A stretch of DNA of 36,686 nucleotides from Advenella alkanexedens (GTDB taxonomy: Bacteria > Pseudomonadota > Gammaproteobacteria > Burkholderiales > Burkholderiaceae_B), in NCBI RefSeq assembly GCF_019132845.1, contig NZ_JAHSPR010000014.1, positions 1-36,686 on the forward strand. The letters are read 5' to 3'. Made by a program: the position numbers and the translations under genes. Shown here one piece after another: positions 3 through 9,442 of this stretch (positions within the stretch are counted from its first letter, which is position 1; each line of letters opens with the position of its first letter). The notes below the pieces were generated by a model. The model ran no database searches, was not told the origin of the DNA, and saw nothing but the letters and a program-made list of their open reading frames with translations.

Positions 3-235
3 TTAAGCGGCCTGACAGGCGGTTTAACCGGTGGTGGTCAAGGGGGTGGCTTGTTGGGTGGCCTGTTAGGTGGCTCAACCGGCAATCCCGGAACGGGTGC
101 TGCTGCTTCAGGCGGCCTCTTGGGCGGTCTGCTGGGTGGTGGACAATCTGGCGGTCAGTCAGGTGGCCTGTTAGGCGGCTTGCTGGGCGGTGGCCAGGGT
201 GGTGGCCTGCTTGGTGGTTTGCTGGGTGGCGGAGC
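3..235 (+). repeat. Leu/Gly-coding degenerate tandem repeat (LLGG units)
   Basis: Repeats of the type ggcctgttaggtggc encode GLLGG and GLLGGG(Q) about eight times inside the adhesin gene, and the array continues beyond the left edge. Units vary at third positions, so the array is degenerate rather than a recent exact expansion. It could still change length by recombination or slippage. Confidence 0.75.
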
Positions 236-2102
236 TCAAGGCGGTTCAGGCAACGTACTGGACTTGGCTACGGGCATTACCTTGCCCCAAAACCAGCTTG
301 GCAATACGCTTGACGGTGTGTTGACACCTGTTTTGAAACCGGTTGAAGGCCTGCTTAACTCCCTGTTGGGTGCCTTGGCTCCGGTTGTTAATCCGGTTGT
401 AGGCGTTGTTAATGGTGTTACAAGCAACCTGGGTATCGAGTTGCCACAAAATCTGCATCTGGATCTGGTTGATGATTTGTCGTTGGCATTGCAGGGCAAA
501 CAGCCACTGGACCTGGCATTGTTGCAATCTGACGGTAATATTTTAGGTTTGGTGCAGCCTGCTGCTGCACCTACTCCCGGTAACCCAATCCCTGCCCCTG
601 TTGTTGGTGAAATTGCAATTGGTGGTGGAGAAATAAACGGTTTGGGTACCGGTGCTCTTGCTACCGCTAATGGTGCAGGCGCCATGGCGATTGGTGATGG
701 AGCCAAGGCCAGTGGTGCATTAACGACCGCTTTGGGTACAGGCGCAGCGGCTACGGCTGAGGCTACTGTGGCCTTGGGTGGTGCCGCTTCTGCGGCAAAG
801 GCTGGCGCTACTGCCATAGGCTCTGGTGCTTCTGCCGCGGGAGAGGGTTCTACCGCTTTAGGTTTAGGTGCTCTGGCGACAGTCAATAACTCTGTGGCAA
901 TCGGTGCGCTTGCTCAAGCGACAGCAACAAATGCTGTTGCCCTGGGTACAGGCTCTGTTGCCGACGAAGCCAATACCGTTTCAGTCGGTTCAGTGGGTAA
1001 TGAGCGTCGTATCACTAATGTTGCAAATGGCACTAAAGGCAGTGATGCCGCTACCGTTGGACAATTGACACCAGTTATTAATGCATTGGGTGGTGGTGCC
1101 AACATCGCGCTAAACGGTACAGTGACCGGCCCCACTTACAATGGTTTCTCTGATGCCAGTCAGTCATTTACTGATGTGGGAAGTGCCTTGTATTACCTGG
1201 ATACTCGTGTTACCGACCTTGAAAATAACGTTGTGGGTGGCAATAATCTGGTACAGCAAGATACTGTTTCAAGAGATATTACTGTCGGTAAAGATACCGA
1301 TGGCAGTGTGGTGAACTTTCAGAATAAAGACAGCCAGGCCCGTAAGTTGACTGGCGTGGCAGCGGGTGCAGTTAATGCAACAAGTACCGATGCTATCAAC
1401 GGTGCTCAATTGCATGCGACCAATCAATCCATTGCCGATGCGCTGGGTGGAAATACAGTAGTTAATATTGATGGTTCCATTACTGGCACCACCTACAATA
1501 TCAATGAGATTACTCAAGGTGGTATTGTTAACAATAACTACACTAATGTTGGAGATGCTTTTAACAGCGTCAGTAATTCCGTAACCAATCTATATAATCA
1601 GGTTAATGATGGCAAGATTGGTCTGGTTCAGCAGGCAAGTCCCAACGCAGCCATTACCGTAGGTAAATCTACAGGTGGCAACGAGGTTAATTTCAGGAAT
1701 GAAAGTGGTGAGGCCCGTCGCCTGACCGGTGTTGCTGAAGCGGTTGACGGAACCGATGCCGTGAACCTGGATCAGGTTACCCGTATGGTTCAGGGTGCAA
1801 CACCCGCTGATTTAACCGAAGTACGTAACGACATCTCATCCCTGCGTGGTGATGTCCGCCGTGTTGAAAAACGTGCTGATGCCGGTGCCGCAACTGCCAT
1901 GGCTGTTGCAGGCCTGCCGCAGGCTTATTTGCCAGGCAAGAGCATGATTTCCATGGCTGGTGGTGTTTATGCCTCTGAGTCTGGTTATGCTATTGGTGCT
2001 TCTACTGTTACAGAAAACGGCAAGTGGGTACTTAAAGGTAGCGTGGCAGGATCTTCACGTGGCCAAATGGGTGCAACCGTTGGTGCCGGTTACCAGTGGT
2101 AA
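3..2102 (+). CDS. Trimeric autotransporter adhesin (YadA/Hia family), 5' end outside window
   Basis: The reading frame is open to the left edge, so only the C-terminal part (about 699 residues) is present and the true start is upstream. The first ~80 residues are Leu/Gly/Gln repeats built on LLGG. Then come short head-type repeats rich in Ala/Gly (AIGDGA, ALGTGA, AIGSGA), a neck-like segment ending DAATVGQL, two copies of a stalk/neck unit (LVQQ...ITVGK...VNF...ARxLTGVA...DA.N), a short coiled segment (about SSLRGDVRRVEKRAD) and a C-terminal membrane anchor ending in Trp (GAGYQW). These are the parts of a type Vc secreted adhesin, which trimerises in the outer membrane and projects a fibre that binds surfaces or host molecules. 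The ligand cannot be read from the sequence. Internal TTG/ATG codons are not the real start. A strong hairpin follows the stop codon. Confidence 0.9.
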   Translation, partial: LSGLTGGLTGGGQGGGLLGGLLGGSTGNPGTGAAASGGLLGGLLGGGQSGGQSGGLLGGLLGGGQGGGLLGGLLGGGAQGGSGNVLDLATGITLPQNQLGNTLDGVLTPVLKPVEGLLNSLLGALAPVVNPVVGVVNGVTSNLGIELPQNLHLDLVDDLSLALQGKQPLDLALLQSDGNILGLVQPAAAPTPGNPIPAPVVGEIAIGGGEINGLGTGALATANGAGAMAIGDGAKASGALTTALGTGAAATAEATVALGGAASAAKAGATAIGSGASAAGEGSTALGLGALATVNNSVAIGALAQATATNAVALGTGSVADEANTVSVGSVGNERRITNVANGTKGSDAATVGQLTPVINALGGGANIALNGTVTGPTYNGFSDASQSFTDVGSALYYLDTRVTDLENNVVGGNNLVQQDTVSRDITVGKDTDGSVVNFQNKDSQARKLTGVAAGAVNATSTDAINGAQLHATNQSIADALGGNTVVNIDGSITGTTYNINEITQGGIVNNNYTNVGDAFNSVSNSVTNLYNQVNDGKIGLVQQASPNAAITVGKSTGGNEVNFRNESGEARRLTGVAEAVDGTDAVNLDQVTRMVQGATPADLTEVRNDISSLRGDVRRVEKRADAGAATAMAVAGLPQAYLPGKSMISMAGGVYASESGYAIGASTVTENGKWVLKGSVAGSSRGQMGATVGAGYQW

Positions 2103-2141: not shown

Positions 2142-2180
2142 AAAAAACCGCTATTCCCTGTAAGGGATAGCGGTTTTTTT
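2142..2180 (+). terminator. Rho-independent terminator of the adhesin gene
   Basis: The stem AAAAAACCGCTAT(T)CCC / GGGATAGCGGTTTTTT has a one-base bulge and loop TGTAA, and it ends in a run of seven T. The A-run on the left arm could also make it work on the opposite strand. It insulates the cat genes from the adhesin gene. Confidence 0.85.
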
Positions 2181-2194
2181 AATGATGCATACTC

Positions 2195-2209
2195 ATACCT
2201 TTTTGGTAT
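2195..2209 (+). promoter_or_regulatory. LysR-type operator (CatM/BenM box) of catBA
   Basis: An exact ATAC-N7-GTAT box lies inside the 17-bp palindrome CATACC-TTTTT-GGTATG. BenM and CatM are known to bind ATAC-N7-GTAT. The centre (2202) is 28 bp before the predicted -35 and 52 bp before the predicted -10, which puts it near -64, the usual recognition-site position for LysR activators. Confidence 0.8.
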
Positions 2210-2229
2210 GAATTGCAATAAATTCCGTA

Positions 2230-2259
2230 TTAGACCCATCAGGCTTGTGCTTATATACT
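2230..2259 (+). promoter_or_regulatory. Predicted catB promoter
   Basis: The elements are TTAGAC (2230-2235), an 18-base spacer and TATACT (2254-2259), giving a transcript start near 2266. The weak -35 fits a promoter that needs the LysR activator bound just upstream. Confidence 0.6.
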
Positions 2260-2301
2260 CTTGAAATATTAATGAAAAGCAGTATTTCATCAGAGGAAAA
2301 G

Positions 2302-3420
2302 ATGGACGCAACGATTGTTGAAGTTAATACCCGGATTTTGGATATCCCTACCATCAGGCCACACAAAATGTCTGTGGCTACCATGCATTGCCAAAGCATT
2401 GTGCTGGTGCGCATCAAGACTTCTGATGGCATTGAAGGTATTGGAGAGGCCACGACCATTGGTGGCTTGAATTATGGTGGCGAAAGCCCTGAAAGCATCA
2501 AGACAAATATTGACAGTTATTTTGCGCCTCTTATTGTTGGTCAATCAGCCACTAAACTGGCGGCCTTGCGCAAACTGATCAATAAAACCATTAAAGACAA
2601 TCGTTTTGCCAAGTGCGCGATAGAAACGGCTTTATACGATGCCTATGCCAAACGTCTTGGCGTTCCGCTGAATGCCCTGTTCGGTGGTGTGGTTGCCAAT
2701 GAAATCAAAGTGGCCTGGACGCTGGCCAGTGGCGATACGCAAAAAGATATTGCCGAAGCAGAGCAGATGTTGGAAACACGTCGACACAATATATTCAAAC
2801 TGAAAATTGGCATGCGCTCACCCAAAGACGATATCAAGCATATCGCTGCCATCAGGAAGGCTGTGGGTGATGATGTCAGCATTCGTGTTGATATCAATCA
2901 GGGCTGGTCTGAAACCCAGACAGTACAAAACCTGCGTGCTTTGGCTGATGTGGGTGTAGAGCTGGTGGAACAGCCGATTCATGAGAAAAACCTGGCGGGT
3001 ATGCAACGCTTGACGGCGCTGGGCATTGTACCAATTATGGCCGATGAGTCCCTGAAAGGTCCGGAAGATGGGTTTACGCTTGCTTCACAGCATTGTGCCA
3101 ATGTGTTCGCCATCAAGATTGAGCAGGCCGGTGGTTTGCAGCATGCCCGTGATTTGATTGGTATTGCGCAAGCGGCTGATATTGCCTTGTATGGTGGTAC
3201 GATGCTTGAAGGATCTATTGCAACCATTGCAGCAGCCCATTTGTTTGCGACCTTGAACAATCTCGAGTGGGGGACTGAATTGTTTGGACCGCTTCTGTTG
3301 AAAGATGAGATTCTGGCAACACCGCTGGATTACAGTAATTTCACCCTGAAAATCCCAACCGGTCCGGGTCTGGGCATCAGTCTGGACGATGATAAGGTGA
3401 ATTTTTACACACGCAAATAA
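2302..3420 (+). CDS. catB: Muconate cycloisomerase (CatB)
   Basis: Converts cis,cis-muconate to (+)-muconolactone, the second step of the catechol branch of the 3-oxoadipate pathway, in the cytoplasm. It is an enolase-superfamily protein of 372 residues, the normal family length. The key residues are visible: the KxK pair K166/K168 (FKLKIG), metal ligands D197 (VDIN), E223 (VEQP) and D248 (ADES), and K272 (IKIEQAGG). These are each one less than the Pseudomonas numbering, which supports the ATG at 2302. That start has AGAGGA just upstream, whereas the longer TTG frame from 2245 would begin before the predicted transcript start. It is the first gene of a catB-catA unit (63-base gap) under a CatM-type operator. 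Unlike classical catBCA operons, catC is not next to it but in the leftward operon. Confidence 0.95.
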   Translation: MDATIVEVNTRILDIPTIRPHKMSVATMHCQSIVLVRIKTSDGIEGIGEATTIGGLNYGGESPESIKTNIDSYFAPLIVGQSATKLAALRKLINKTIKDNRFAKCAIETALYDAYAKRLGVPLNALFGGVVANEIKVAWTLASGDTQKDIAEAEQMLETRRHNIFKLKIGMRSPKDDIKHIAAIRKAVGDDVSIRVDINQGWSETQTVQNLRALADVGVELVEQPIHEKNLAGMQRLTALGIVPIMADESLKGPEDGFTLASQHCANVFAIKIEQAGGLQHARDLIGIAQAADIALYGGTMLEGSIATIAAAHLFATLNNLEWGTELFGPLLLKDEILATPLDYSNFTLKIPTGPGLGISLDDDKVNFYTRK

Positions 3421-3483
3421 CGGCTATATAAGCGTTAAACATTTATTGAAATTTTTTATCACTTCGCAAAAGGAAGAGACATT

Positions 3484-4389
3484 ATGAGTAAAGAGTCCGT
3501 TGCCGCGTTGCTGGCACAAATGCAGGCTACCGAGTCCCCCGTTGCCGATGAGCGCATCAAGGCAATCATCAATCGTATCATTAGCGATTTGTTCAATACG
3601 ATCGAAGATTTTGATATTACCCCCAGCGAGTTCTGGACAGCATTGAATTTCCTGGCCAACAGTGGTCAGGAGTATGGCCTGATCGCAGCTGGTCTGGGTT
3701 TTGAGCGCTTGCTTGATATCCGTTTGGATGAGGAAGAGGCTGCTGCCGGTATTACCGGTGGTACACCACGTACTATTGAAGGACCTTTGTATGTGGCCGG
3801 TGCACCAGAATCCGTAGGATTTGCCCGTCTGGACAAGGATGGTGAGATTGGTGAGCCGCTGGTGATGGAAGGTGTGGTGCGTGATGAGGCAGGTAATCCG
3901 CTGAAAAACGCTTTGGTTGAAGTATGGCATGCCAACCACTTGGGCAATTATTCCCACTTCGATCCTTCACAGGAAGAGTTTAACCTGCGTCGCAGTATTC
4001 GTACCGATGAAAACGGCCGTTACTGTTTCCGCAGTGTGCTGCCCGTTGGATACAGTGTTCCTCCCGGTGGCGCAACCGATGTGATCCTGAAAAAACTGGG
4101 TCGTCATGGTCATCGTCCTGCACACATTCACTTCTTTGTGACCGCTGAAGGCCAGCGCAAGCTGACAACCCAGATCAATATTGATGGTGATCCATACCTG
4201 TGGGATGACTTCGCTTTTGCAACCCGTGAGGGATTGGTTCCTGAGGTCAAGAAAGAGTCTGATCCTGAAGTGATCAAGAAATATGACATGAATGGCCCAT
4301 TCTCTCATATCGAATTCAACTTTGATCTGCATGCCGATCGCCAGAATTTGATCAGTACTGAAGTAACCCGCGCTCGCGCACAAGCTTAA
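3484..4389 (+). CDS. catA: Catechol 1,2-dioxygenase (CatA)
   Basis: An intradiol ring-cleaving non-haem Fe(III) enzyme that turns catechol plus O2 into cis,cis-muconate, the substrate of the upstream CatB. The 301-residue length is typical. There is an N-terminal helical linker domain (about 1-100) that mediates dimerisation in the family, then the intradiol dioxygenase beta-sandwich. The four iron ligands are recognisable: Y156 (NYSHFD), Y190 (PVGYSVPPGG), H214 and H216 (RPAHIHFF). The ribosome-binding site AAAGGAAGAG lies just ahead of the ATG. Co-transcription with catB is inferred from spacing and the lack of a terminator between them. No benzoate or phenol hydroxylase genes are in the window, so the source of catechol is encoded elsewhere. 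Confidence 0.96.
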   Translation: MSKESVAALLAQMQATESPVADERIKAIINRIISDLFNTIEDFDITPSEFWTALNFLANSGQEYGLIAAGLGFERLLDIRLDEEEAAAGITGGTPRTIEGPLYVAGAPESVGFARLDKDGEIGEPLVMEGVVRDEAGNPLKNALVEVWHANHLGNYSHFDPSQEEFNLRRSIRTDENGRYCFRSVLPVGYSVPPGGATDVILKKLGRHGHRPAHIHFFVTAEGQRKLTTQINIDGDPYLWDDFAFATREGLVPEVKKESDPEVIKKYDMNGPFSHIEFNFDLHADRQNLISTEVTRARAQA

Positions 4390-4460
4390 TGTTCGCACCT
4401 TTTCAGCATGGCTGGGAAGGTGCTTGCCATAAAGGCAGTTTGAGCAAATCGTTTTTTCTG

Positions 4461-4507
4461 CAACAATGCCGGCATATTCTGTTTAAACAGATATGCCGGC
4501 ATTGTTG
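4461..4507. terminator. 47-base near-perfect palindrome between convergent catA and catD
   Basis: A 17-bp outer stem (CAACAATGCCGGCATAT and its complement) is followed by one bulged T and the inner palindrome CTGTTTAAACAG, 23 base pairs in all. It sits between two convergent operons, so it probably ends or protects both transcripts. Neither strand has a U-run after it, so it is not a standard intrinsic terminator. Confidence 0.6.
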
Positions 4508-4520
4508 TCATGGCAGGGAG

Positions 4521-5300
4521 TTATCTCTTCAGAAAGTCTTCCAGGGCACGATTGAAGGCTTCACTGGCTTCAATATTGGACAAGTGTGAGGCATCCAGAT
4601 CAACCCGTTTTGATCCGGCAATTTTTTCTGCCATCGCATCGGCATCGGCCACGGTGGTTACCGGATCATGGCTTCCAGCCACAATCAGGGTAGGCGTTTT
4701 GATCAGTGCGATTTTTTCACGTAAATCGGCTTTGGCCAAAGCATCGCAACATGAGGCATAGCCTTCGGCGTCCGTCTGGCGCAAGCCGTTAATCAGCGCA
4801 TTAACACTAGCCGGGTTGGCCTGTACGAAGCCTTCGGTAAACCAGCGGCCGGCAGAACCATCGGCGACCGGATTCATGCCTTCAGAACGAACCAGAGCGG
4901 CCCGATCATTCCAGCCAGCTTCCTGGCCGATTTTGGCAGCGGTGTTGCACACCACCAGTTTATCCAGTTTTTCAGGAGCATGAATGCCCAGCCACTGTCC
5001 AATCAGACCACCCATTGAAATGCCGCAAAAACTGAACTTTTCGATGCCCAGGGCCTGGGTGATTTGCAGCACATCATTGCCCAGTTGTTCAAGCGTATAA
5101 GGGCCTTTGTTTTTGACGGATTCACCATGCCCACGGGTATCGTAGCTCAAGACACGATAGTTTTTGCTGAAATAGTCCACCTGTTTGGCCCACATGCTGT
5201 GGGTGGTACCCAGGGAGTTTGAGAAAAATAGAACCGGGGTGTTTTCGGGACCGTTCAACTCGTAGTTGAAGGTTTCATTATTAATCTGGATAGAGCTCAT
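4521..5300 (-). CDS. catD: 3-oxoadipate enol-lactonase (CatD/PcaD)
   Basis: Hydrolyses 3-oxoadipate enol-lactone to 3-oxoadipate, the step after CatC. It is an alpha/beta hydrolase of 259 residues, normal for the family, with the nucleophile elbow GISMGG (G-x-S-x-G), a late Asp region (GSHDPVTT) and the catalytic His in DASHLSNIE. The reading frame extends 11 codons upstream, but the start at 5300 (MSSIQINN) has AGGAA at the right spacing and matches the usual N-terminus. It is the third gene of a leftward tctC-catC-catD operon. I call it catD rather than pcaD because catC is directly upstream and no protocatechuate genes are nearby. Confidence 0.93.
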   Translation of the reverse strand: MSSIQINNETFNYELNGPENTPVLFFSNSLGTTHSMWAKQVDYFSKNYRVLSYDTRGHGESVKNKGPYTLEQLGNDVLQITQALGIEKFSFCGISMGGLIGQWLGIHAPEKLDKLVVCNTAAKIGQEAGWNDRAALVRSEGMNPVADGSAGRWFTEGFVQANPASVNALINGLRQTDAEGYASCCDALAKADLREKIALIKTPTLIVAGSHDPVTTVADADAMAEKIAGSKRVDLDASHLSNIEASEAFNRALEDFLKR

Positions 5301-5385
5301 AAATGTTCCTGTTGCTGAAAAACAAAACAGCAAACCGGGTTTGAAGTTTGCTGTTATAAGATGACTGGGGTGACAAGCAGGTGGG

Positions 5386-5661
5386 TTAAATGGCCGAAGG
5401 ATGTCGGCACAGGGCCGTTACCTTGATATCCATGTACGGGAACAGGGGCAGGCCAGACAGCAATGTGTGCAGTTCTTCATTGCTTTCCACATCAAAAATA
5501 CTGACGTTTTTATATTCGCCCACCACGCGCCAGATGTAAGCCCATTTGCCGGAGCGTTGCAGTTCCTGTGAGTATGCCTTTTCAGTAGCCTTGATTTCAT
5601 TGGCCACTTCCTCGGGCATATCGTGAGGAATATTAACGTTCATTTCAACCATGTATAGCAT
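5386..5661 (-). CDS. catC: Muconolactone delta-isomerase (CatC)
   Basis: Isomerises muconolactone to 3-oxoadipate enol-lactone, which the downstream CatD hydrolyses. The 91-residue ferredoxin-like protein is close to the family's usual length of about 92-97 and forms decamers in known members. The N-terminus MLYMVEMNVNIPHDMP resembles the standard start of CatC, and the segment HTLLSGLPLFPYMDIKVTAL is the family's C-terminal half. AAAGGA lies 6 bases before the start. The gap to catD is 85 bases and to the Bug gene 43 bases, with no terminator visible, so the three genes are probably one transcript. Confidence 0.93.
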   Translation of the reverse strand: MLYMVEMNVNIPHDMPEEVANEIKATEKAYSQELQRSGKWAYIWRVVGEYKNVSIFDVESNEELHTLLSGLPLFPYMDIKVTALCRHPSAI

Positions 5662-5704
5662 ATGCGTTCCTTTAAAAAAGATAGTCCATGAGTATTCATT
5701 TTAC

Positions 5705-6697
5705 TCAGTTCGCGGAAATTCCCGTGTCTTTGATGATTTTTTGCCATTTGGTGGTTTCATCCTGCAGGTAAGCTTTCAGTTCTTCAGGTGTGCTGCCGAT
5801 TTTTTCCGCACCAATCGTGGCAAAGGTGGTTTTGACCTTTTCTGAGTCCATGGCGTTTAACATGGCTTTATTCAGTGTCTGGATAACGTCGTCGGGCGTG
5901 CCGGCTGGCGCAAAGGTGGCAAACCAAGGGGTCAATTCATAGCCTTTCAGCCCGCTTTCTGCAACCGTGGGCAGGTCGGGCAGGGTGGAAGAGCGTTTAT
6001 CGGTTGTAATGGCCAGTGCCTTGAGTTTGCCTGCATCAATATGGGGTTTGGCAGAGGTAATGCTGTCAAACATGTAATCCACCTGTCCACCCAGTAAATC
6101 GGTGACAGCCGGGCCACTGCCACGGTATGGAACATGTAGCATGTCCAGTTTGCCCAGGTAAGTAAACAATGCACCCGCCAGGTGAATGGAAGTGCCCACA
6201 CCTGCCGAGGCGTAGGTGTATTTACCGGGGTTTTCTTTGCTCTGTTCAATCACGTCCTTGACTGAGTTGACATCATTGCGGCTATCCTGGGTGACCAGAA
6301 TATTGGGGACGGCGGCCAGCAGGGAAATGGGGGAAAAGTCCTTGATGGGGTCGTAAGTGAGTTGTTTGTATAATGAGGGGTTGACTGCCATGCCGTTGGC
6401 AACAATCATGATGGTATAACCATCGGGTTTGGCACTGGCAACTTGCGCAGCACCAATATTGCCGCCTGCACCGGGTTTATTTTCAACCACAATAGATTGG
6501 CCCAGTTCCTGGCTCATGGCTTCACCCAGCGTGCGGGCAATAACATCCATGGCACCACCGGGCGGGAAGGGAACAATCCAGGAAATCGGACGCTCGGGGT
6601 AGGCGGCCAGCGCGCTATTGGAAAGAGCAAGCAAACTGCCGGCAGTGGCAAGTGTTAATATTTTTTTTGCCACAAATGAACGATTGCGGTTTGGCAT
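5705..6697 (-). CDS. Bug/TctC-family tripartite tricarboxylate-type periplasmic binding protein
   Basis: A periplasmic solute receptor of 330 residues. It has a Sec signal peptide (residues 1-31, cut after SNSALA), then the typical mature start YPERPISWIVPFPPGGAMDVIAR and the GANGxMAVNPSLYK and AGVGTSIHLAGALF segments of the Bug family. Bug proteins bind carboxylates or amides and deliver them to TctAB permeases or act as sensors. Thousands occur in Alcaligenaceae genomes, often without permease genes nearby, as here. It is the first gene of the operon with catC and catD and is divergent from catR, so it should be induced with the pathway. I infer that its ligand is an aromatic acid, muconate or another pathway-linked carboxylate, but the sequence does not show this. 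GGAGA precedes the start. Confidence 0.88.
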   Translation of the reverse strand: MPNRNRSFVAKKILTLATAGSLLALSNSALAAYPERPISWIVPFPPGGAMDVIARTLGEAMSQELGQSIVVENKPGAGGNIGAAQVASAKPDGYTIMIVANGMAVNPSLYKQLTYDPIKDFSPISLLAAVPNILVTQDSRNDVNSVKDVIEQSKENPGKYTYASAGVGTSIHLAGALFTYLGKLDMLHVPYRGSGPAVTDLLGGQVDYMFDSITSAKPHIDAGKLKALAITTDKRSSTLPDLPTVAESGLKGYELTPWFATFAPAGTPDDVIQTLNKAMLNAMDSEKVKTTFATIGAEKIGSTPEELKAYLQDETTKWQKIIKDTGISAN

Positions 6698-6790
6698 CAG
6701 GGAAATCTCCGGAATTAAGGTATGGAATATATCCTGTCATAGGGAATGACTGAATGGGATATAGCCATATGATTTAATATAGATGAAATA

Positions 6791-6819
6791 ATTATCCTTG
6801 TAGTTTTTTCTGCTGTCTA
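6791..6819 (-). promoter_or_regulatory. Predicted promoter of tctC-catC-catD
   Basis: Read on the minus strand: TAGACA (6819-6814), a 17-base spacer and GATAAT (6796-6791), with a start near 6784. The -10 begins 52 bp from the centre of the operator at 6841-6855, the same distance as at catB. Confidence 0.6.
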
Positions 6820-6840
6820 AGACTATATTTGTAGGTGTCA

Positions 6841-6855
6841 ATACTTTAAAGGTAT
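6841..6855. promoter_or_regulatory. LysR-type operator (CatM/BenM box) between catR and tctC
   Basis: A second exact ATAC-N7-GTAT (spacer TTTAAAG). For the leftward operon it lies near -64. For catR it overlaps the untranslated leader five bases before the ATG, so bound regulator could also repress its own gene. Confidence 0.8.
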
Positions 6856-6860
6856 GGGTT

Positions 6861-7751
6861 ATGGAGTTAAGACAAATTCGGTACTTTCATTGTGTTGCAC
6901 GGGAACTTAGTTTTACCCGGGCGGCCAAGTTACTGCATATCGCGCAGCCGCCGTTAAGCAGACAAATCAAACTACTGGAGGAAGAACTGGGGGTCAAGGT
7001 CTTCGAGCGCCAGGGGCGTGGAATCCGTCTTACTGATGCGGGCAAGTACTTTATGGATCATACCCAGAAAATGACCCAGCAGCTGGAAGAGACCATCAAG
7101 GCTACGCAACGGATCGGCAAGAAAGACCGTGTCTGGTTTGGTGTGGGGTTTGTGCCTTCCACGCTTTATGGCTACATGCCTGATTTTATCCGTGCTTTAA
7201 GGGAATTGAGTGAGCAGGTGGAAATCGGTCTGGTGGAAATGACGACCTTGCAACAGTTTGAAGCCTTGAAAATGGGACGTATTGATCTTGGTATCGGGCG
7301 GATCAAATTAAGCGATCCTGAAATTGCACGTGTGGTGCTGCGTGATGAATCCCTGGTGGTGGCTGTGCCCAGATATCACCGGTTGGCCAGTGTGGCGGGG
7401 GTTGGGGTCAATGAAATCTTGCAGGAATCACTGATTGTGTATCCGGCCGCTCCTCGTCCCAGTTATGCGGACCATGTTCTGGATTTGTTCAGTCAGCATG
7501 GGTATGTGCCCAATGTCGTGCAGGAAGTCAACGAGTTGCAAACGGCGATTGGCCTGGTGGCCGCCGGTATCGGTATTGCGCTGGTTCCCGAGTCGGTGAG
7601 ACGATTGTTGCGTGACGATGTGGTTTATATTGACTTTCAGGCGGTTGGGTTCACTTCACCGATCATGATGAGTTGGCGTAAAAATGATGAGTCAGGACTC
7701 TTGAAAGACGTTGTGGCGCTGGCTAAAAACATGGCAATGGAATATAAGTAA
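6861..7751 (+). CDS. catR: LysR-type regulator of catechol degradation (CatM/BenM/CatR type)
   Basis: A 296-residue LysR activator. Residues 1-60 form the winged helix-turn-helix (MELRQIRYFHCVARELSFTRAA... QPPLSRQI), very like BenM/CatM, and the rest is the periplasmic-binding-protein-like effector domain. Residues known to contact muconate in BenM (Ser99, Thr128) have counterparts at S100 (GFVPST) and T129 (EMTTLQQF), so cis,cis-muconate is the likely co-inducer. It is divergent from tctC-catCD, with a 163-base shared region holding an ATAC-N7-GTAT box. A second box precedes catB. AidB-like and permease genes follow in the same direction. The symbol catR is chosen for its position. The resemblance to BenM leaves a benzoate response possible. 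Confidence 0.9.
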   Translation: MELRQIRYFHCVARELSFTRAAKLLHIAQPPLSRQIKLLEEELGVKVFERQGRGIRLTDAGKYFMDHTQKMTQQLEETIKATQRIGKKDRVWFGVGFVPSTLYGYMPDFIRALRELSEQVEIGLVEMTTLQQFEALKMGRIDLGIGRIKLSDPEIARVVLRDESLVVAVPRYHRLASVAGVGVNEILQESLIVYPAAPRPSYADHVLDLFSQHGYVPNVVQEVNELQTAIGLVAAGIGIALVPESVRRLLRDDVVYIDFQAVGFTSPIMMSWRKNDESGLLKDVVALAKNMAMEYK

Positions 7752-7819: not shown

Positions 7820-9442
7820 ATGCGGCATGAACAGATTTCAGACAATCAAGTCACGGGTTTGTGCAATTACAATATTTTTGACTCTGATCCTGCATTAAAA
7901 GAAGCCCTTAGATCCCTGGGCGCTTCATGGGCCTTGGAAGATTGCCAGGAATATGGTGCCCTGATGGGGTCTGCCCCCTTATTGCAACATGCGGTCAATG
8001 CCAATAAGCATCCACCGCAGCTCAGGATGTTGAAGCAGGCGGATCATCAAACGGCCACCATTTCTTTTCATGACAGTTGGCACGAGCTGTTACGCAACCT
8101 GTTTCAACAGGGCGTTCATGCCGATGCCTGGCAAAGCAATGCCCATGTCAGACGGGCGGCATTGTTTTATTTGCATGGTCAAACCGAAGCGGGCAGTCTG
8201 TGTCCGGTTACCATGACCTTTGCGTCCATTCCTGCCTTGAAATATGAGTCCTGGTTTGAGATGCTGGTACCGCATTTGTACAGTCGGGAATACGATGCGT
8301 CCGATCAACCCCTGGAAGGCAAGAAAGGCATGATGATTGGCATGGGCATGACCGAAAAACAGGGAGGATCCGATGTCCGTGCCAATACCACGATTGCAGA
8401 ACCATCAGGTCAGTTCGCACACACCCAGACTTATCGCCTGAATGGGCATAAATGGTTTTTTTCTTCGCCACTTTCCGATGCCCATCTGGTTCTGGCGCAA
8501 TCAAAAGGCGAGTTAAGTTGTTTTTATGTACCGCGCTGGTGCCCCGATGGCCAACTGAACGGAGTACAAATACAGGCGCTTAAAGACAAAATGGGTAACC
8601 GCTCCAATGCCAGTGCCGAAGTTTTGCTGCAAAACGCCTGGGCCTTGCCTGTCGGTGAGCCAGGGCGGGGCATACAGGCCATTATTAAAATGGTGGCTCA
8701 AACCAGGCTTGACTGTGTATTGGGTAGTGCGGCTTTGTTACGCCAGGCAGTGGTGCAGGCCGTATATCATGCCCGACACAGAAGGGTATTCGGTAAGAGA
8801 CTGGTTGAGCAGCCTTTGATGCAAATGGTCTTGTGTGATCTTGTACTGGAAAGCGAGGCGGCCATGTGGTTGTCCATGGTGCTTGCGCATGCGATGGAAA
8901 ACCGGCATTCAGACCTGTCCCGAGCCTATGCACGCATTGTGACGCCTGCGGCCAAGTTCTGGGTATGCAAGCGGGCGGTTGAAACGGTTGCTGAATGCAT
9001 GGAAGTCTGGGGCGGTAATGGTTATGTGGAAGACGGCCCCATGCCGCGTTTGCTGCGTGAGGCACCGGTTAACTCAATTTGGGAGGGTTCAGGCAATGTA
9101 ATGTGCCTGGATGTCTTGCGGGCTTTACGCAACGAGCCCGAGTTGACAGAGATCTTGCTGGGCAATCTTTCCGCTGAGGCGGGCATGCATGCTTTGTTGA
9201 GCCAGGCGATCAACACGCTCAAGATGCGTTTGCGTCATGATGCCCATGAGCTTGAGTACGGTGCCCGGCAGGTGGTGCAGGAACTGATTTTGCTGGCGCA
9301 AGCCACCCTGATGTGTCATTATGCGCCTTCGTATGTTGCCGATGCCTTTATTCAAAGCCGGTTTTCACCGGGTGGGCGTATTGTCGGGGCGCATGTTTAT
9401 GCCGATCCCCAGGAAATACTGAAAAGGGCTGTGGTTTTTTGA
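7820..9442 (+). CDS. aidB: AidB-like acyl-CoA dehydrogenase family protein
   Basis: A 540-residue flavoprotein, the same length as E. coli AidB (541) and much longer than ordinary acyl-CoA dehydrogenases (~380). Shared signature stretches include GMGMTEKQGGSDV, NGHKWFFS, SDAHLVLAQ, KDKMGNRSNAS, TPAAKFWVCKRA and PVNSIWEGSGNVMCLDVLR. AidB belongs to the adaptive response to DNA alkylation in E. coli and is a DNA-binding FAD protein whose physiological reaction is still uncertain. The start at 7820 has an ideal AAAGGAGG; the upstream TTG frame is less likely. It lies 68 bases after catR and 13 bases before a permease gene, so the three may be co-transcribed. No ada or alkB is visible here, so a catabolic dehydrogenase role is possible. 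Confidence 0.85.
   Translation: MRHEQISDNQVTGLCNYNIFDSDPALKEALRSLGASWALEDCQEYGALMGSAPLLQHAVNANKHPPQLRMLKQADHQTATISFHDSWHELLRNLFQQGVHADAWQSNAHVRRAALFYLHGQTEAGSLCPVTMTFASIPALKYESWFEMLVPHLYSREYDASDQPLEGKKGMMIGMGMTEKQGGSDVRANTTIAEPSGQFAHTQTYRLNGHKWFFSSPLSDAHLVLAQSKGELSCFYVPRWCPDGQLNGVQIQALKDKMGNRSNASAEVLLQNAWALPVGEPGRGIQAIIKMVAQTRLDCVLGSAALLRQAVVQAVYHARHRRVFGKRLVEQPLMQMVLCDLVLESEAAMWLSMVLAHAMENRHSDLSRAYARIVTPAAKFWVCKRAVETVAECMEVWGGNGYVEDGPMPRLLREAPVNSIWEGSGNVMCLDVLRALRNEPELTEILLGNLSAEAGMHALLSQAINTLKMRLRHDAHELEYGARQVVQELILLAQATLMCHYAPSYVADAFIQSRFSPGGRIVGAHVYADPQEILKRAVVF

Follow-up and report, generated by a model that had tools for sequence, protein, structure and literature searches.

Two exact copies of the sequence ATAC-N7-GTAT lie upstream of two catechol (cat) operons in a 36,686-nucleotide stretch of Advenella alkanexedens DNA (contig NZ_JAHSPR010000014.1, positions 1-36,686, hereafter called the window). 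In this stretch catBA is read rightward, an operon comprising catC, catD and a gene for a Bug-type periplasmic solute-binding protein is read leftward (Bug-catC-catD, 4521-6697), and LysR1, a gene for a LysR-type regulator, is again read rightward. ATAC-N7-GTAT is the Site 1 sequence of the regulators BenM and CatM, for which a model of alternative Site 1/2 and Site 1/3 occupancy has been described, with Site 2 preceding the -35 element (PMC6628147; this paper and the two cited further below are drawn on for portions of their text). We consider it very likely that both boxes serve as Site 1 operators for a LysR regulator of the CatR/BenM type, predicted to mediate the coordinated induction of catBA and Bug-catC-catD by muconate.

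That the two matching boxes are real, as a preliminary description of this locus had it, is confirmed: they are the only exact copies in the window (Table 1), where dinucleotide-preserving shuffles yield a mean of 0.15 (in agreement with 0.16 in a Markov simulation) and none of 100 reaches two. The same description placed the -35 and -10 elements 28-29 and 52 bp from the box centre, and these distances are correct at both promoters. On the catB side the centre is at 2202, TTAGAC begins at 2230 (TAGACC at 2231) and TATACT at 2254 (+52); on the Bug side, read on the minus strand, the centre is at 6848, TTAGAC begins at 6820 (TAGACA at 6819) and GATAAT at 6796 (+52). Both promoters were matched by a sigma-70 scan, whose match count for the region equals chance (9 vs. 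a shuffle mean of 8.5).

The architecture that the two operons were said to share is strongly supported by its rarity in the genome and its conservation among relatives. We searched for a composite of the box and TTAGAC 17-23 nt further on; the 2.99-Mb genome contains exactly three, all with a spacing of 20 or 21 nt, and no copy of the reversed control. Two are those of the window, before catB-catA and Bug-catC-catD; the third lies elsewhere in the genome and precedes catA2-benABCDE (G000:C16:103783-103824, G000 being the A. alkanexedens genome). The inner box letters (CTTT..) are common to all three. The box of the third composite (G000:C16:103810-103824) is the same 15-mer as the Bug box and lies 4 nt before the start of LysR2, a second regulator gene divergent from catA2-benA-benB-benC-benD-benE and an MFS transporter gene. 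With one mismatch allowed at a spacing of 20, a single further copy appears, before a second benD gene (benD2; BenD profile 415 bits, cut-off 380), and it is kept in one relative (G040). Two-mismatch composites at fixed spacing numbered 9, vs. 6 in the control, so only zero- and one-mismatch copies were used. The benD2 gene itself (G000:C19:15084-16009; L161, L168), which has a transporter-like open reading frame (ORF) downstream of it in the same orientation, also occurs in A. faeciporci and, apart from an operon copy in A. mandrilli (G122), was not found in eight other genomes of the genus (E 1e-70).

Relatives were sampled for the Bug-catC-LysR arrangement, and the counts that follow include the A. 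alkanexedens genome; among 30 catC loci, 19 lacking Bug within the stretch were left out of footprinting, and a further 25 catC-positive genomes fell outside the sample. In the Bug/lysR intergenic regions the box is exact in 16/16, always 4-5 nt ahead of the start codon of lysR, with TTAGAC exactly 20 nt from the box in 15 (TTGGAC in the remaining one). Upstream of catB the box is exact in 15/15 and TTAGAC stands at +20 in 13; the exceptions are G125, which has TTGGAC, and G041, where catB-Bug-catC form a single operon served by the lysR intergenic region already counted. The element follows the genes, since it is kept in A. mandrilli, where catBA lies ∼25 kb from lysR, and since stand-alone catA genes have composites of their own in G028, G109 and G025. 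LysR1 is 92% identical to its counterpart in A. faeciporci and 90% to that in A. mandrilli; one genome of the same genus (G124) has neither LysR1 (E 1e-90) nor the composite. Operons can thus split and move yet retain their operator-promoter block.

A degenerate Site 2 is discernible in all four promoters of the A. alkanexedens genome: besides the two in the window (Table 1), catA2 has 7/8 matches at +22 and benD2 5/8 at +21, the chance per position being 0.049, 0.009 and 0.001 for at least 5, 6 and 7 of 8 matches, respectively. Its end coincides with the first T of TTAGAC. In the mechanism that we propose, one dimer of a LysR tetramer would occupy Site 1, centred near -64 of the predicted catB and Bug transcripts, and cis,cis-muconate would keep the second dimer at the degenerate Site 2, which lies 21 bp further downstream and adjoins the -35 element (TAGACA/TAGACC); there it would recruit RNA polymerase and so induce catBA and Bug-catC-catD together. 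Outside the window, the predicted regulon takes in catA2-benABCDE-transporter and, probably, benD2.

The Bug box also bears on the regulator gene itself. Its end is 5 nt short of the LysR1 start codon at 6861, and the AAAGG within it, at 6848-6852, resembles a Shine-Dalgarno sequence for LysR1. TATATT occurs on the lysR strand in 14/16 of the lysR upstream regions; because it sits at the -10 position, and because catB, without a divergent lysR, lacks it in its promoter, we read it as the lysR -10 element. Site 1 would then fall inside a short lysR leader, ∼5-19 nt downstream of the proposed LysR1 start, and cover its Shine-Dalgarno sequence, which suggests that Site 1 occupancy should repress lysR1 (autorepression). 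RNA structure at the LysR1 start is rejected as a possibility (fold z -0.42).

Several observations weigh against the assignment of the boxes as muconate-responsive operators, the first being that the bare box is not specific: ATAC-N7-GTAT occurs in 34 exact copies genome-wide, vs. 26 for the reversed pattern. The genome scan for the bare motif that had been suggested as a means of listing the regulon therefore fails, and that earlier view is corrected here. As many as 27 of the 34 boxes lie inside mechanical ORFs of at least 190 amino acids, and a 28th, that before LysR2, is covered only through its ORF's upstream TTG start; four non-coding boxes without TTAGAC (L006, L010, L011, L015) have neighbors with no evident cat link. 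This abundance would also suit an origin of the two boxes as chance matches in AT-rich intergenic DNA, a reading to which we attach almost no probability given their exact conservation at fixed spacing in relatives, the absence of two boxes from all 100 shuffles, and the empty composite control; only 3 of the 34 boxes have TTAGAC 18-23 nt away. Second, beyond a candidate over the catB -10, kept only in part among relatives, no conserved Site 3 was found in the A. alkanexedens promoters or in those of relatives, and its presence is suggested at catB only. Third, the terminator-like hairpin between catC and catD (-13.5 kcal/mol, z -5.25) could lower catD transcription and questions the full cotranscription of catD.

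The remaining objection is that the composite is exclusive to cat/ben promoters only in the A. alkanexedens genome. Across the family it is a broader LysR promoter layout, because many of the family loci adjoin other LysR or Bug genes or none of the genes queried: 48 of 250 family genomes carry the composite, vs. 10 for the reversed control (among the matches listed), and a check of 30 loci with queries for cat, ben, Bug and LysR placed 11 by cat/ben genes, 1 at a LysR1-like/Bug pair without a visible cat gene, 8 by other LysR and/or Bug genes, and 10 by none of those queried. The composite could on these grounds be a general promoter layout of LysR-regulated genes in the family, evidence of LysR control that does not specify which LysR or which inducer. 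Composites at other LysR-Bug or LysR loci (L121, L123, L135, L142-L146) speak for this possibility, and its confinement to cat/ben promoters in the A. alkanexedens genome, together with the inner letters common to its three exact copies, speaks against it; we give it somewhat less than even chances.

At four of these loci (L142-L145), with other LysR genes, some of them beside Bug, ATAC-N7-GTAT overlaps the LysR start codon and TTAGAC and TATATT are interleaved. We tentatively envisage, at rather less than even probability, a fixed divergent cassette common to CatR-type and other LysR-Bug pairs, in which TTAGAC stands back to back with the regulator's TATATT and Site 1 lies on its Shine-Dalgarno sequence or start codon, so that one binding event would prime the target and silence the regulator, and a movable -35/Site 2 block would let the regulon split. 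If this is true, a single binding event would silence transcription of the regulator and perhaps its translation start region too. A conserved element, ATAC-N7-GTAT...AAATATTAGAC, recurs among the genomes of another genus (several of them) and in one more (L120, L137-L141), and no gene queried lies near it.

As to the regulator, the best solved relatives of LysR1 are BenM (231.7 bits) and CatM (217.7 bits). Over 280 aligned residues, 120 are identical to BenM in LysR1 and 137 in LysR2, its nearest paralog in the genome (46% identical). The preliminary description held that the muconate contacts of BenM are kept in LysR1; this applies to the equivalents of Ser99, Thr128, Arg146 and Glu226 (S, T, R and E), and does not extend to the pocket positions G98 (Pro) and F203 (Tyr), or to Tyr293, where LysR1 has Ala in an alignment extended without gaps. 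R160 and Y293 of BenM have been named as critical for benzoate response (PMC6628147). Arg occupies the former position in both LysR1 and LysR2 (His in CatM), and LysR2 has Tyr at the latter, a pattern from which LysR2 probably senses muconate and benzoate, and LysR1 muconate. Both proteins score below the curated cut-offs of NF040709 (BenM, 600) and NF040710 (CatM, 580), LysR1 with 246.4 and 240.6 and LysR2 with 324.2 and 335.4, these being ‘exception’ models with high cut-offs. In a tree that leaves out L081, L088, L108 and the 72-amino-acid L073 and takes in two distant paralogs from the same genome (L065, L066), LysR2 groups with BenM and CatM (87/96) and LysR1 does not; the branch parting LysR1 from the other three has support of 74/42, yet is kept in 200/200 bootstrap trees. 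A third LysR of the genome (C14, 32%), beside another Rieske dioxygenase gene, has no box.

Judged by usage in betaproteobacteria (PMC6449761), LysR1 looks CatR-like, being located beside cat genes with a box before cat genes only, and LysR2 would fit CatM/BenM, being divergent from a cat/ben operon and having R160 and Y293. The notion of one regulator driving a split regulon is incomplete in view of LysR2, with its identical box beside catA2-benABCDE, and of the benD2 site; the two regulators may share the sites, and the BenM-like LysR2 could read the same box. For some of these boxes, or for all, LysR2 might even be the chief activator, leaving LysR1 to act mainly on itself and Bug-catC-catD or making it redundant; CatM and BenM have a comparable overlap in Acinetobacter. 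Favoring this alternative are the identical 15-mer, the residues at BenM positions 160 and 293, the placement of LysR2 in the tree, and the cross-activation of two CatR paralogs in Pseudomonas putida ND6 (PMC9705993). We regard it as rather unlikely: in five relatives (G071, G115, G123, G121, G125) the catB and Bug boxes are conserved and a search for LysR2 (E 1e-60) returned the LysR1 locus only, so that LysR1 must suffice there.

Regulation of this type is already known, and the Advenella example adds to it. As in Acinetobacter baylyi ADP1 (PMC6628147), there are a Site 1, a degenerate Site 2 before the -35 element, two paralogous LysR proteins distinguished at R160/Y293, and both cat and ben genes; unlike in that species, LysR1 falls outside the BenM/CatM branch and below the NCBIfam cut-offs, a clear conserved Site 3 is lacking, a Bug gene belongs to the predicted regulon, and the operons are arranged differently. 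The betaproteobacterial regulons of Suvorova and Gelfand (2019, PMC6449761) include catB-COG3181 operons and catA-benABCD, and share with the present case a CatR associated with cat genes and COG3181 (TctC/Bug), a CatM/BenM divergent from catA-benABCD, predicted autoregulation, and a related motif (AkACC-N5-GGTAT); in contrast to what the text used describes, Bug-catC-catD in A. alkanexedens is split from catBA, convergent with it, and has its own promoter copy. The main text of that paper does not mention Advenella. Like P. putida CatR (PMC9705993), the system would combine an upstream repression binding site with a muconate-dependent downstream activation binding site and, possibly, cross-regulation of two paralogs; unlike here, the P. 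putida operons are single catBCA-type units and the CatR sites were footprinted rather than read from sequence. Literature on Advenella with catechol and muconate, judged by titles and the beginnings of abstracts, contained nothing on the regulon, and, apart from PMC6449761, listings showed no paper evidently dealing with a cat cluster that contains a Bug gene. What is offered is a concrete prediction of the Advenella benzoate/catechol regulon, comprising four promoters, of which one carries a mismatch, together with a pair of sister regulators; the first probably responds to muconate only, and the other has the residues for benzoate synergy. For listing such regulons, the bare box is insufficient.

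Table 1. Coordinates of genes, predicted regulatory elements and hairpins in the cat region of the window.
Feature	Position	Strand	Basis
Predicted Site 1 (box), catB-catA promoter	2195..2209	+	exact ATAC-N7-GTAT
Predicted Site 2 (degenerate), catB	2216..2230	+	CAAT-N7-GTAT, 5/8 matches, 21 bp past Site 1
Predicted -35 TTAGACC (hexamer TAGACC), catB	2230..2236	+	TTAGAC at +20 from box
Predicted -10 TATACT, catB	2254..2259	+	17-nt spacer from TAGACC; conserved column-wise in relatives
Candidate Site 3 over -10, catB	2255..2269	+	ATAC-N7-ATAT, 7/8, at +60
Predicted Site 1 (box), Bug promoter; also spans LysR1 Shine-Dalgarno region	6841..6855	.	exact ATAC-N7-GTAT
Predicted Site 2 (degenerate), Bug	6820..6834	-	CTAC-N7-GTCT, 6/8, +21 from Site 1
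Predicted -35 TTAGACA (hexamer TAGACA), Bug	6814..6820	-	TTAGAC at +20 from box
Predicted -10 GATAAT, Bug-catC-catD promoter	6791..6796	-	sigma-70 scan and conservation
Proposed LysR1 -10 TATATT, back to back with Bug -35	6824..6829	+	conservation
catB, muconate cycloisomerase	2302..3420	+	TIGR02534 549.6 bits, cut-off 334.95
catA, catechol 1,2-dioxygenase	3484..4389	+	TIGR02439 424 bits, cut-off 392
catD, 3-oxoadipate enol-lactonase	4521..5300	-	TIGR02427 296.6 bits, cut-off 255.85
catC, muconolactone delta-isomerase	5386..5661	-	TIGR03221 159.3 bits, cut-off 130.6
Bug/TctC periplasmic solute-binding protein	5705..6697	-	PF03401 266.6 bits
LysR1, CatR-type LysR regulator	6861..7751	+	HTH_1 and LysR_substrate
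Intrinsic-terminator-like hairpin, parting upstream ORF from catB promoter	2142..2179	+	fold, then T run
Symmetric hairpin where catA and catD converge	4460..4508	.	-34.5 kcal/mol, z -7.77
Terminator-like hairpin between catC and catD	5326..5355	-	11-bp stem, then T-rich tail

The mechanical ORF of catB begins upstream of the gene start given in Table 1, at a TTG at 2245. The hairpin ahead of the catB promoter (-22 kcal/mol, z -6.84; none of 200 shuffles equally good) is absent from the list of a terminator pattern scan, owing to the loop and stem limits of that scan. This strong predicted terminator ends a repetitive ORF of 683 amino acids (51-2102, plus strand) with head-repeat-like motifs that, by eye, resembles a trimeric autotransporter adhesin. 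On the other side of the region, LysR1 is directly followed by an acyl-CoA dehydrogenase-like gene, possibly co-oriented with it (7829-9442, plus strand; NF008594 522 bits, below the cut-off of 545).

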